Counted from the first letter of the stretch, positions 40,322 to 44,487 are shown. The stretch is 64,000 nucleotides of DNA from Ignavibacteriota bacterium (GCA_016212665.1 JACREZ010000032.1:129566-193565), one strand, 5' to 3'. The notes: a model not told the origin generated them from the sequence alone. A program made the numbers and translations.

Positions 40322-40394
40322 GCCAAATTTAACACAGAGCAAATTTTTCCACTCTGCTCCAGTTTCGGGGAACTTTTGTTCTATTTTCCCCTGC

Positions 40395-41050
40395 TTTTCA
40401 GCAATTCTTGGAAATTTTTGTACAATTCTTCCCAACTTTTCTGCAATTGTTGGAAACTTTTGGACAATTCTTCCCAATTTTCTGCAATTGTTGGGAACTT
40501 TTGTGCAATTCTTCCTAACTTTTCTGCAATTGTTGGAAACTTTTGCACAATTCTTCCCAACTTTTCTCCAATTGTTGGAAACTTTTGTGCAATTCTTCCC
40601 TACTTTTCTCCAATTGTTGGGAACTTTTGTACAACTCTTCCCTACTTTTCTGCAATTGTTGGGAACTTTTGTACAATTCTTCCTAACTTTTCAGCAATTC
40701 TTGGAAATTTTTGTACAATTCTTCCCAACTTTTCTACAATTGTTGGAAACTTTTGTGCTATTCTTCCCAACTTTTCTACAATTGTTGGAAACTTTTGCAC
40801 AATTCTTCCCAACTTTTCTACAATTGTTGGAAACTTTTGTACAACTCTTCCCTACTTTTCTGCAATTGTTGGGAACTTTTGTACAATTCTTCCTAACTTT
40901 TCTGCAATTGTTGGGAACTTTTGTGCAATTCTTCCCAACTTTTCTGCAATTGTTGGAAACTTTTGTGCAATTCTTCCCAACTTTTCTGCAATTGTTGGAA
41001 ACTTTTGGACAATTCTCCCCAACTTTTCTGCAATTCTGGGAACTTATGCC
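40395..41050 (+). repeat. Minisatellite: about 15 copies of a 42-bp unit
   Basis: The unit, in two halves, is CAATTGTTGGAAACTTTTGT + GCAATTCTTCCCAACTTTTC plus two bases; most copies are 42 bp and one near 40470-40500 is 41 bp. Variants (GGAAAC/GGGAAC, CCCAAC/CCCTAC/CCTAAC, TGCAAT/TACAAT) recur in blocks, suggesting expansion by segments. Because 42 is a multiple of three, long frames stay open on the plus strand (40376-41242 and 40488-41093), translating as 14-residue repeats such as AIVGNFCAILPNFS. On the minus strand some copies (CCCTAC variants) give stops. No ribosome site or family supports translation; I treat it as DNA repeat first. Confidence 0.9.
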
Positions 41051-41258
41051 CTATATTCACTTACTTTTGTGCAATATGAGGATTCTGAACTAATCAGTTT
41101 CTGGATCTCACAGTATTTTGTTGAATTTCAAGGGGTGTATTTAACTCTTCAAGGAAGAGGTGAATCGAACATATTTCTGAAAGGCAGAGTTTTACCACAG
41201 TTTGAGGAGCGTGCGAACGAGAACATAAATTTTTCTAAGTAGAACTATGTCAGTTTTG

Positions 41259-41289
41259 TTTGATTGAAAAAATGAATGAAGTATATTTG
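41259..41289 (+). promoter_or_regulatory. Bacteroidota-type promoter ahead of the cassette-like array
   Basis: TTTG (41259-41262), exactly 19 bases, TATATTTG (41282-41289): full match to TTTG-N19-TAnnTTTG. It points into the three-gene array, whose first attC-like end is about 110 bp downstream, in the position of an integron cassette promoter. Confidence 0.7.
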
Positions 41290-41401
41290 CGGGAAATAAA
41301 ACTGAACAATAATATGGTTAGACACAAAATGCGCCGGACAAACGAATGCTTAAGTCATGCATGATGAACTTCTGTTATTCACTACAACTTAAACAGGCGT
41401 A

Positions 41402-41471
41402 TAACTGCACTATTTGTGCTGGGTTTGCGCTACTTTATGAGATGTGTTTAGCGTTTATTTGAATGTTAGCT
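41402..41471 (+). other. attC-like boundary before the DUF3800 gene
   Basis: Starts TAACTGCACTATTTG and contains GGGTTTGCGCT, similar to the left end of the next site (TAACAGCACATTTG, GGGTTTCGCGCT at 42273). It ends GTTAGCTGTAATT (41465-41477), which is 12 of 13 identical to GTTAGCAGTAATT at 43209-43221, just before the third gene. Compact compared with the 132-bp site; inverted pairing is weak. Confidence 0.45.
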
Positions 41472-41479
41472 GTAATTAT

Positions 41480-42256
41480 ATGGGACAATTCTACATAGAT
41501 GATAGTGTTCACGATGAGGCTGGTTTTATTATCGGTGCTTGTGTTTATACGAACATTGACATAGAAGAAAAAATCATTGAAATAATAAAATCCAATGGGT
41601 TTGACCCAGATAGTTTTGAGTATAAGAGCAGTGCGAACTATTCAAAAGAACACGAAAAAGCCAAAATTCGTGAACACCTAAAGGGACTGTTTAGCGACAG
41701 TTGCAAACTTGGCATTGTAGTGATTCCAAGTACAAGTAGAAAACAACTTGGCTTTGAATGTATAAAAGCTGTTAAGCAGTTTATTGACAGCAATGAAAAA
41801 ATTAAAAAGCCTGTCAGTATTTATTTTGACCAAGGAATGTTTACATCCAAAGACAAAGCAGAACAATTTATATCTACAATAAATTTTACTGACTGTAAGT
41901 TTCATTTAGAACAAAACTCAATTGAAATAAAAGGTATTCAACTTGCAGACCTTGCGGCTCATATCTCCTCAATACAACTTAAAGACGCATTGGGTTTAGT
42001 TACAAAAATGGTTAAGGCGGGCGACAACTCTGGTTACGACCCAGACTTGGACATTGAACTTGGATTTGAAATGTGGGCGACTATTCGCTACACATTTTTC
42101 AATGAAGTTACTAAACTTTACACTGACGACCCAATTGCCGATGCGACTTTAAAAGTTGAACCTTATGGACTTTACATTTCAGACCTTTGTGACAAGAATT
42201 TGACTGACATTGCAAGAACAAAATTTGGCGACATTTATTTAGGATGCATACATTGA
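41480..42256 (+). CDS. DUF3800-family protein
   Basis: 258 residues from ATG 41480 (MGQFYIDDSVHDEAGF); the frame extends 12 codons upstream into the attC-like boundary, so the later start is preferred. The N-terminal YIDDS and the late SIEIKGIQLADLAAHISSIQ, with isolated acidic residues (YFDQG in the middle), match DUF3800, a family with a predicted RNase H-like fold often found in mobile and defence contexts. Biochemical function is not established. AT-rich compared with the surrounding housekeeping genes. First cargo of the cassette-like array. Confidence 0.75.
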   Translation: MGQFYIDDSVHDEAGFIIGACVYTNIDIEEKIIEIIKSNGFDPDSFEYKSSANYSKEHEKAKIREHLKGLFSDSCKLGIVVIPSTSRKQLGFECIKAVKQFIDSNEKIKKPVSIYFDQGMFTSKDKAEQFISTINFTDCKFHLEQNSIEIKGIQLADLAAHISSIQLKDALGLVTKMVKAGDNSGYDPDLDIELGFEMWATIRYTFFNEVTKLYTDDPIADATLKVEPYGLYISDLCDKNLTDIARTKFGDIYLGCIH

Positions 42257-42270
42257 AAAGAATAGCTACA

Positions 42271-42402
42271 GCTAACAGCACATTTGCAATAAGCGGGGTT
42301 TCGCGCTCCACAGAAAGTTATGTGGTAGCCGAAAGTTCAGCTCTCCGCATCAACATTTGTGCTGAAAAGCCGCCCATCGCAAATCTCCAAAACGTTATAG
42401 GC
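42271..42402 (+). other. attC-like site between DUF3800 and TPR genes
   Basis: 132 bp from GCTAACAGCACATTTGCAA to AACGTTATAGGC, starting 14 bases after the DUF3800 stop. The left 28 bases match 22 of 28 of those at 44363-44390, and the right end CCGCCCATCGCAAATCTCC / AAAACGTT matches CCGCCATCAAAATCCCG / AAACGTT at 44464-44486. The arms pair imperfectly (ATTTGC/GCAAAT, GCGG/CCGC, CAGCACA/TGTGCTG), as in folded integron attC sites. Confidence 0.6.
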
Positions 42403-42464
42403 AACGCGTGACGACACAGCCGACATCAATCAGACGAGATTAATACAAGCAAAACAAATAAACA

Positions 42465-43190
42465 ATGGAAATCATCGGATACATCATTTTAGGACTAAGC
42501 ATTATAATCACACTGGGTTGGTGCATCAACATTAGACACAAAGCGACGTATGAACAAGCGACTGAGAAAGCAATGGAACTTCAAGGATTTCTAATGACAG
42601 CTTCCATAATTTTAGTTTTTGTTATTCCGCTTTCATCATTTCATCTGCTTTGGATGCTTCCAGTTTCTTTTATTTTAGGACTACTAAGCGTGACAACTCC
42701 GCTTAAAGTTCTTTGGATTTTTTCTTCCATCTACTTTTCATTTTGGTATATCGGCATAAGTAATCCTGGACGAAAGTTTTTTCTGGACGGTGATTATAAA
42801 AAAGCTGTCGCTGCTTTGAAAGACGAAATAAACAAGAAGCCATCTTCAGCAGAAGCCTATTTTAACCTTGCACTTGCTTACGGAAAATTAGGACAGCACG
42901 ACAATGAAATTTCTGCTTACGAAGAAGCAAGTAAACTAACTCCGAATAAACCCGAAACATATTTCAATTTGGGTAACGCATACATAGACAAAGGTGACAA
43001 ACACAAAGCTATTGAGGTATTCAAACAAGCAATCAGTTTAAGACCTGACTACCTAAAAGCACATTACATAATGTGTAAGACATACGCTGAAATAGGAGAC
43101 AAAGAAAATGCTCTTAAAGAATTGGAGATAGTCAGAAAAACGGACAGCCGAAGTGCTGACGAGTTAGCTTCAATCATTAAAACAGTTTGA
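42465..43190 (+). CDS. Membrane-anchored TPR protein
   Basis: 241 residues. N-terminal half has hydrophobic segments (about 4-23, 44-62 and 66-98), then a cytosolic or periplasmic C-terminal half of three TPR units: GDYKKAVAALKDEINKKPSS, AEAYFNLALAYGKLGQHDNE, PETYFNLGNAYIDKGDKHKA, and YLKAHYIMCKTYAEIGDKEN. TPRs mediate protein contacts; the partner is unknown. Second gene of the cassette-like array, AT-rich. Confidence 0.8.
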   Translation: MEIIGYIILGLSIIITLGWCINIRHKATYEQATEKAMELQGFLMTASIILVFVIPLSSFHLLWMLPVSFILGLLSVTTPLKVLWIFSSIYFSFWYIGISNPGRKFFLDGDYKKAVAALKDEINKKPSSAEAYFNLALAYGKLGQHDNEISAYEEASKLTPNKPETYFNLGNAYIDKGDKHKAIEVFKQAISLRPDYLKAHYIMCKTYAEIGDKENALKELEIVRKTDSRSADELASIIKTV

Positions 43191-43199
43191 CAATGCAAA

Positions 43200-43221
43200 T
43201 AACTGACCGTTAGCAGTAATT
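43200..43221 (+). other. Minimal attC-like boundary between TPR and AlbA_2 genes
   Basis: TAAC-TGACC-GTTA (43200-43212) continuing as GTTAGCAGTAATT. Only the two core ends are present, with no long hairpin, so it may be a collapsed site. The GTTAGCAGTAATT part matches 12 of 13 bases at 41465-41477. Confidence 0.4.
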
Positions 43222-43245
43222 TTTAAATGACGACAAGAACCTACA

Positions 43246-44367
43246 ATGGTTAATAAGAGACAGCTTATAAAGAATATAATTTCTCACAACGATGAGTGCA
43301 CTTTTTTCGATAAGAAGGATTCAGTTGACTTGAAAACAGAAAAGGGCAAAGCAAAATTTCTTAAACACATTTGTGCACTTAGTAATTCAAATCCAGAAAA
43401 TGACTCCTTCCTTATTGTTGGAATATCAAATGACAATGAAATCGTTGGGGCAGAGTTCATTGATGATGCAGATATTCAAAATTTGGTAAATTCAATTTTA
43501 AAAAATCCCCCTTTAATTAAGTATGAGAATGTTTCTTTTCCTAATCTCAAAAAGGACAAGTCCGTTGGCTTATTGACAATTAGAAACAATTCTAAGACAA
43601 CTTCCTTTCTTAAAAAAATATCGACAATTGAAGCGAATACTATCTATCACAGAATTGGTAGTAAATCAGAACCGACAAACGGAGAAATTAACAAAGTCAA
43701 AGAGAACAAAGAAATTGTTGAGAAGACATACAAATTCTCACAAATAAACATCAAAGACCTGTTAGATAATGTTTTCGATTTTTATAATCTTTGGGACAAA
43801 GCATATAACCCAACATACATCGTATTTAAAGACCAGTTTGTTGTTTGTTGGGCAGGCTATTCGACAAATGATGACTACTTGAGTGAAGTTGACATTCAAA
43901 TTGTAAATGAAGGCACTCGACTCTTTTTTTCAGCAATTCAAGAAGTAAAAATGAATATCACAAATGAACTCATCAATATTATTGAATTTCAACGATTAGG
44001 CTTTGGTAATAATTTTGACAACTACGCAACTCATTCCAACTCAATAATCTTCAAAGACAATGGAACTTATAGTATTAACAAGCAATTTATTTTCACACCA
44101 CCTCAATTTCCAATTGAAGATGTTGAAAGGCTTTATGAAAAAGCAAAGAAATTTGAGAATAGAATAAAATCAAATGAGAAAATGGACATCATAGATTGGG
44201 AGTTTGGAGAAGGGTTAGCGAACTACTATTTTCTTTGCTATTTAAATGGTATTAAAGAAGCCAGACAAGATTTTATTAATTCAATAGAATATTTAGACGG
44301 AGTCGCCGCTTTATGGCATCGGGAATGTAACGACTTATTAGAAGAGTATGAGAAAAACTACTGCTAA
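43246..44367 (+). CDS. AlbA_2/Schlafen-like putative DNA- or RNA-binding protein
   Basis: 373 residues. The N-terminal 150 residues follow the AlbA_2 (divergent AAA-4/Schlafen) pattern: SVDLKTEKGKAKFLKHICAL, NDSFLIVGISNDNEIVGAEF, then NTIYHRIGSKSEPTNGEI, which corresponds to the conserved YxRxGS strand. The C-terminal 220 residues (from about 165) are not recognised. Related domains occur in transcription regulators and in tRNA-cutting Schlafen effectors. Third gene of the array; its stop codon is overlapped by the following attC-like end. AT-rich with lysine- and asparagine-heavy usage, unlike neighbouring core genes. Confidence 0.72.
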   Translation: MVNKRQLIKNIISHNDECTFFDKKDSVDLKTEKGKAKFLKHICALSNSNPENDSFLIVGISNDNEIVGAEFIDDADIQNLVNSILKNPPLIKYENVSFPNLKKDKSVGLLTIRNNSKTTSFLKKISTIEANTIYHRIGSKSEPTNGEINKVKENKEIVEKTYKFSQINIKDLLDNVFDFYNLWDKAYNPTYIVFKDQFVVCWAGYSTNDDYLSEVDIQIVNEGTRLFFSAIQEVKMNITNELINIIEFQRLGFGNNFDNYATHSNSIIFKDNGTYSINKQFIFTPPQFPIEDVERLYEKAKKFENRIKSNEKMDIIDWEFGEGLANYYFLCYLNGIKEARQDFINSIEYLDGVAALWHRECNDLLEEYEKNYC

Positions 44368-44487
44368 TAGCCGTTTTGCAAAAGCGGTGGTTAAGTGCTT
44401 CTATGACAGTGAAGTGCTAAATCAATCTCTGTGCGTCTAATGAAGTTTAGTGCAAATAAACCCCGCCATCAAAATCCCGAAACGTTT
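44363..44487 (+). other. attC-like site closing the array
   Basis: Begins GCTAATAGCCGTTTTGCAAAAG, overlapping the AlbA_2 stop codon, and ends CCGAAACGTT. Both ends resemble the site at 42271-42402 (22 of 28 bases on the left; CCGCC-ATC-AAAT-CCC-AAACGTT order on the right). Interior words such as GGTTAAGTGC and GCACTAAAC (complement) can pair. The remaining 180 bp to the next gene is AT-rich without a gene. Confidence 0.55.

Follow-up and report, generated by a model that had tools for sequence, protein, structure and literature searches.

The 64,000-nt stretch of an Ignavibacteriota bacterium genome analysed here (GCA_016212665.1, JACREZ010000032.1:129566-193565; the window) carries at positions 41255-44484 a gene array that is best read as an orphan array belonging to a Bacteroidota integron-like system: a promoter and attI-like head followed by three cassettes, each composed of a gene and a 3' hairpin site. 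On the sequence evidence a probability of about 0.86 is given to this reading. Two of the sites in the window array are intact and one is deleted. On the grounds of gene content and of the relatives sampled, the genome is counted as Bacteroidota in the broad (GTDB) sense. An earlier note on this DNA had proposed an integron-like cassette array without an integrase, and this proposal is supported by hairpin covariation, complementarity between the start and end of cassettes, one-directional arrays, an integrase at array heads elsewhere and exact breakpoints. The note had also placed the array in a lineage with sites unlike the Vibrio/class 1 type. The array is no local oddity: the system to which it belongs extends through the phylum and has another integrase.

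It is very probable from the comparisons below that Bacteroidota have a second kind of integron, distinct from the IntI/attC kind, whose integrase forms a clade of its own and whose attI and long hairpin sites are likewise its own; the sites are present in about one third of the sampled genomes. This system would carry defence, metal and other accessory genes, and would have assembled or carried arrays of erm(F), ere(D), estT, tet(X) and blaOXA, some pieces of which reached plasmids of Salmonella and Acinetobacter.

The cassette array in the window

The array lies between nth and 21-bp repeats on one side and a gene for a SpoIIE-type phosphatase on the other, and its DUF3800, membrane TPR and SLFN_AlbA_2/DUF5929 genes are all on the + strand (Table 1). 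The strongest sign of its nature, missed by the earlier note, is a gene-specific complementarity between the start and the end of the genes. An integron cassette begins with bases complementary to the R'' box at the opening of its own 3' site, the cassette having once been a circle cut at G^TT. In the window TGTTAGCTGTAATTAT at 41464 is complementary to ATAGCTACAGCTAACA at 42262, at the two ends of gene 1, and TTAGCAGTAATTTTT at 43210 to AAAAACTACTGCTAA at 44353, at the two ends of gene 3. Cassettes 1 and 3 differ (T/A) at one matching place, and because this difference recurs at both the start and the 3' box, the match belongs to the individual cassette. Both cassettes thus have the relation between start and own R'' by which integron cassettes are recognised.

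The two spacers at 42262-42394 and 44355-44484 share their ends, as had been noted, but the likeness goes further: in an alignment that also includes three sites of other organisms, mean column identity is 78% over 156 columns. The word GTTAGC-N-GTAATT does occur at 41465 and 43209, and the overlap of one site with a stop codon is real (44365-44367). The 28-mers at 42271 and 44363, said to agree at 22 positions, agree at 19 of 28 in an ungapped count, and the approximation of the ends to RYYYAAC...GTTRRRY is a poor one (AGCTAAC, GTTATAG). Of the three related spacers claimed, the first and third are full sites (122 and 95 bits) and the one behind the TPR gene is a remnant; with the family model and filters off, only these two full sites were found. 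Single-strand folding was better than that of shuffled sequences for site A (z -1.7 for the top and -2.5 for the bottom strand) and not for site B alone.

A cluster of attC sites without integrase (CALIN) is defined by at least two attC sites within 4 kb, as detected by the attC model of IntegronFinder, and no integrase. The window has two sites about 2.1 kb apart, as counted with the family model, and no integrase. Since its sites are not canonical attC, the array is a CALIN by function but not by strict membership.

Table 1 Features of the proposed orphan array in the window. E values of sites A and B come from the family model that both sites helped to found.
Feature	Position	Strand	Evidence or description
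Orphan array, whole segment	41255-44484	+	Putative promoter/attI-like head and three cassettes
Head element: promoter, leader, attI-like site	41255-41465	+	Four near-full copies in the genome
Promoter-like TTTG-N19-TATATTTG, candidate Pc at array head	41259-41289	+	Sequence; repeated with the attI-like site at other heads
attI-like site, ...TATTTGAAT^G|TT	41406-41465	+	Similarity of four heads stops at G^TT
Cassette 1 (DUF3800 gene)	41466-42394	+	Begins with GTTAGCTGTAATTA; own R'', reverse-complemented, reads GTTAGCTGTAGCTA
DUF3800 protein gene	41480-42256	+	Pfam PF12686, E 7e-6
Site A, intact attC-like site of cassette 1	42262-42394	+	122.3 bits, E 6e-24
Cassette 2 (TPR gene), 3' site lost	42395-43209	+	G^TT bounds at 42394 and 43209; site remnant only
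Membrane TPR protein gene	42465-43190	+	Pfam TPR families
Inferred remnant of cassette 2 site (GCAAATAACTGACCG), hairpin deleted	43191-43209	+	10.9 bits, E 0.4
Cassette 3 (AlbA_2/DUF5929 gene)	43210-44484	+	Begins with GTTAGCAGTAATTT; own R'', reverse-complemented, reads ATTAGCAGTAGTTT
SLFN_AlbA_2 + DUF5929 protein gene	43246-44367	+	Pfam PF04326, E 3e-12; PF19351, E 3e-45
Site B, last site	44355-44484	+	95.2 bits, E 2e-18; R'' CTAAT not CTAAC, then GTTTTT

The site family in Bacteroidota

The outside sites used in the alignment (L041 from Raineya orbicola, L042 and L043 from metagenome-assembled genomes) were found by pattern scan, and share with sites A and B a common hairpin; no occurrence of the 21-base site pattern is expected in shuffled windows. 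A first covariance model, built from five sites, gave 113 sites in 20 fetched regions and the window as a 21st source, all sites of a locus lying on one strand. A second model gave 201 hits in 44 sources, the only exception in orientation being one antisense match of a known site. Up to 12 sites were present per 20-kb locus at the first scan. The site is about 125 nt long, forms a hairpin with a conserved inner sequence and stands behind a gene. Among sampled Bacteroidota genomes, sites were detected in 142 of 396, representing 75 of 171 genera (covariance model, E <= 0.001), which is a lower bound as few candidates per genome were scored.

Paired bases occupied 87.5% of the cells of the hairpin against 61.3% in shuffled alignments, and the covariation score was 0.591, against 0.162 for shuffles and 0.04-0.07 with the partners slid. 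As the sequences are related, the shuffles alone give no probability, and the argument rests on the slide control and on the variety of pair types. G-U pairs are rare in the hairpin, one column excepted. An imperfect hairpin maintained by covariation is thus found here as in integrons. The core boxes are another matter: YAAC was present in 141 and GTTR in 137 of 142 sites, against only 9 and 13 of 142 for the RYYYAAC and GTTRRRY of integrons. The view of the sites as unlike the Vibrio/class 1 type is supported. Conserved A-C mismatches had been considered as a cause of clearly better folding of the bottom strand; the difference was only weak (77 of 139 sites, p 0.035). Three of the six loci from the pattern scan of the genome collection (L038-L040) were unmatched by the model and were discarded as chance hits, as were both matches of the first-guess patterns in relatives. 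The pattern scan gave no site in viral contigs, nor was any found in phage records.

The circular-permutation signature seen in the window is general. Of 93 neighbouring pairs of sites, 61 showed complementarity between the first ten or so bases of the cassette and its own R'', against 4.2 +/- 1.9 (maximum 12) in 2000 permutations; most non-matching pairs probably hide an undetected site between them. The 61 matching cassettes have a median length of 1164 bp, and in 58 of them the array strand carries the largest open reading frame. An A stands at position 11 of the start in 137 of 141 cases, facing a C in R'', and both intact window cassettes keep this mismatch. The cargo of 40 other cassettes is diverse, and includes defence proteins, mercury proteins and transporters.

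Array heads and their integrases

The 227 bases before cassette 1 have copies of about 70% identity at three other places in the genome (C12:28774, C12:34077 and C27:63622; assembly of 3.91 Mb in 45 contigs). The four heads share the promoter-like and the attI-like stretch up to G^TT and then continue with the differing starts GTTAGCTGTAA, GTTATTGGTAA, GTTAGCGGCAA and GTTATAGGGCA; one of them (L093) is followed by an intact cassette with matching R''. The stretch TTTG-N19-TATATTTG is presumably promoter-like, as judged by the promoter consensus. A 40-48-bp promoter-like piece (TTTGATTGAAAAAATGAATGAAGTATATTTGC) with the attI part missing was seen at about nine further places in the same genome (L222-L230).

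In other genomes tyrosine recombinases with Phage_integrase and SAM-like domains were found near the array heads. A profile of three of them had matches in 120 of 396 genomes, and 28 of the recombinases had a listed site no more than 40 kb away. All but one of the 28 were upstream in the orientation of the cassettes, 22 sharing their strand and 5 being divergent. Where a start could be predicted from the first R'', 12-13 of its 14 bases were matched, the usual distance behind the stop codon of the integrase being 66-112 nt, and (G)CATATATAAxxGA precedes this predicted start of the first cassette in many heads; L131, L142 and L143 are among the heads with a larger distance from the integrase or no clear predicted start. 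The one-directional array with integrase and attI at its head, as known from integrons, is therefore present in the relatives, and the window has the head with no integrase.

The head integrases scored at most 210 bits, against a cut-off of 265 for the integron-integrase family. The spacing from GxRxxE to LRHS is 93-96 residues in them and 135 in the three IntI measurable by motif, and the insertion of about 41 residues in IntI (alpha-I2) is missing from their aligned rows, also when compared with IntI4; an extra N-terminal part is usually present. In a quick tree all 42 recombinases (88) stood apart from 19 IntI (starred branch), and both together apart from Xer. The head integrases thus group with IntI but outside it, the exact branching order being tentative because long branches meet.

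Canonical IntI itself exceeded its family cut-off in 105 of 396 Bacteroidota genomes. None of the 105 IntI places compared was within 100 kb of a listed site, and the IntI loci bear a different kind of site, on which the family model scores 29 bits or less. The presence of sites tracks the XerA-like integrase (odds ratio 6.9, p 8e-17), and coincidence with IntI is below expectation (odds ratio 0.49), the p-values taking genomes as independent, which they are not. The count of 105 is more than the literature on Bacteroidota suggests. Separately, TnpF and other tyrosine recombinases about 49% identical to a head integrase were seen in 48 Acinetobacter plasmid records.

Resistance cassettes on plasmids

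Carrier organisms are those named in the plasmid records matched when the site was compared with plasmids by BLAST. In a Chryseobacterium plasmid the integrase is accompanied by an attI-like ACATATAAACAA^GTT, and the sites downstream share its strand. A plasmid of Riemerella anatipestifer has seven sites, with estT, erm(F), ere(D), blaOXA and further cassettes set between them. The erm(F) cassette begins with the same bases in four contexts, namely two Riemerella records, a Sphingobacterium plasmid and a Flagellimonas plasmid, in the last of which it is the first cassette, directly behind a divergent integrase. At its left end, ungapped identity outside G^TT was 15-35% in five of six pairs and 72% in the sixth, where related sites precede both copies. 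Inside G^TT, three records without indel were 98-100% identical; an early indel lowers the value to 72-73% in pairs with L189, one of the Riemerella records. Across the right-hand bound, identity fell from 88-97% inside to 25-40% outside. Constant adjacency of genes and spacers in relatives had been named as an observation that would speak against a cassette array. This check was made on the erm(F) cassette, which moves as a unit with breakpoints exactly at G^TT and occurs in different contexts as integron cassettes do; the movement was seen outside the window.

Other resistance genes are similarly placed. Two sites enclose tet(X2) in records from Bacteroides and from Sphingobacterium, the start being a match in the Sphingobacterium one, a Salmonella plasmid has a site between an IS66-broken copy of erm(F) and estT, and in Acinetobacter indicus a site is beside estT and tet(X). 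Taken together, the loci L212, L213, L214, L215, L216 and L217, from Bacteroidota, Salmonella and Acinetobacter plasmids, have erm(F), ere(D), estT, tet(X) and blaOXA beside or between sites.

Two further observations concern individual loci. The record L189 (NZ_CP081933.1, 4806 bp, Riemerella anatipestifer) seemingly consists of five tiled cassettes (cation efflux, hypothetical, serine hydrolase, erm(F), other) and has no replication gene annotated; it is possibly an excised multi-cassette circle, or an assembly loop. In two plasmid arrays group II introns, their position read by eye, apparently lie inside the R'' of a site and opposite to the array (L187:18722-20577, L190:6600-8500). Group IIC-attC introns insert likewise in ordinary integrons, and by this analogy an unrelated element may treat the family sites as attC.

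Proposed mechanism and alternative explanations

An integrase of the XerA/IntI-like clade, acting in trans or formerly in cis, would join sites at G^TTR. On excision as a circle, a cassette would have its R'' box paired with its own TTR... beginning; circles would be inserted at attI or at other sites, and the head promoter would read the cassettes behind it. Catalysis by the head-clade integrase, a single-stranded substrate and an active head promoter are what the arrangement suggests. Several observations weigh against this reading of the window array. No integrase of the head-integrase clade was found in the window genome, whose recombinases are of XerC/XerD type only, and no integrase remnant was traceable near the array in the window. 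The relatives searched gave no empty site. The R'' of site B is changed and cassette 2 is without its site, which is why the array is taken as partly decayed. Finally, just 28 of 141 profile recombinases were within 40 kb of a listed site, so that many of them would do other work, or the list, which holds best matches only, is short. The integrase of the window genome may have been lost or may act from a source not found, such as DNA missing from the assembly; alternatively, a different recombinase may serve.

A canonical CALIN, that is, divergent ordinary attC sites left by an IntI integron, would have the same cassette logic, and IntI is frequent enough in the phylum, true attC sites even matching the family model weakly. 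The absence of IntI from the neighbourhood of listed sites, its negative association with them and the failure of the attC core consensus across the family make this explanation very unlikely. Movement by host XerC/XerD with no dedicated integrase, as in pdif modules and integrative mobile elements exploiting Xer (IMEX), would fit both the recombinases present in the window genome and the kinship of the head integrases with Xer. It is very unlikely in view of the hairpin sites of about 125 nt in direct orientation, which are not 28-bp dif sites in inverted pairs, and of the dedicated integrase at array heads in other genomes; in the window genome itself XerCD might act in trans. A dispersed, non-mobile repeat (an element resembling a miniature inverted-repeat transposable element, a terminator or an RNA structure) that merely happens to follow genes would account for a hairpin after nearly every array gene and for many copies per genome. 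An Rfam search of the locus gave no match, however, and G-U pairs are rare but for one column. The complementarity of start and R'' is cassette-specific and spans the gene, which neither a repeat nor a terminator predicts, and with the exact bounds of erm(F) movement it renders this explanation highly improbable. The orphan array of an integron-like system is accordingly preferred.

Relation to known systems

With integrons and CALINs the system shares one-directional arrays of genes with 3' hairpin sites, starts complementary to the own R'', the junction G^TT, an integrase, attI and promoter at the head, and the existence of clusters without integrase. It differs in its integrase, which is in a separate clade, lacks the IntI insertion, usually has the extra N-terminal part and is usually encoded on the same strand as the cassettes, and in its sites, which are about 125 nt long with conserved inner sequence and have GTTR/YAAC boxes with about 10 nt of pairing instead of GTTRRRY/RYYYAAC. 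With pdif (Xer) modules it would share the movement of resistance modules by Xer-type recombinases. Those modules have 28-bp sites without a long hairpin, in inverted pairs, and no head integrase or attI. In the family the hairpins are long and each array has one direction, and 28-bp dif-like sites in inverted pairs were not seen, no search aimed at pdif having been made.

The NCBIfam family NF040815 (recomb_XerA_Arch, 'site-specific tyrosine recombinase/integron integrase') is passed by two of the three full-length head integrases (225.5 and 227.8 bits against 220), and plasmid copies of the head integrase carry its name; the third scores 192, and the family is named for archaeal XerA and is silent on cassettes or sites. 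In resistance regions of Riemerella anatipestifer, direct repeats DR1-DR3 have been described, with a 217-bp non-coding repeat flanking ereD (Luo 2015, PMC4481100). These repeats were suspected of moving resistance genes, the hairpin, cassette logic, integrase and wider family being unrecognised. They probably overlap the family sites, being likened to them by description, not by repeat sequence. A search of the open-licence literature, with subscription papers and preprints outside its range, gave no description of the system.

The common view equates integrons with IntI and attC and holds them to be rare in Bacteroidota. IntegronFinder 2.0 reported few complete integrons in this group (PMC9024848). 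If the present reading is right, cassette logic arose, or is able to work, in the absence of the insertion specific to IntI, which has been regarded as essential (Smyshlyaev 2021, PMC8138268). Resistance genes that had moved among Bacteroidota in ways hitherto unexplained would also gain an origin as cassettes, and the site model would allow many accessory genes, defence genes included, to be annotated as mobile cassettes.

Surroundings of the array

The locus of the three window genes was absent from the relatives searched, and the nth loci of relatives, scanned for sites only, had none. The SpoIIE neighbour has a close homologue in one relative only (G009), where the rest of the window gave no alignment. 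No defence-system match worth naming was obtained for the three cassette genes. A long run of 21/42-bp tandem repeats (TTTTGTGCAATTCTTCCCAACTTTTCTNCAATTGTTGGAAAC) occupies 40376-41040, a short way upstream of the array head.

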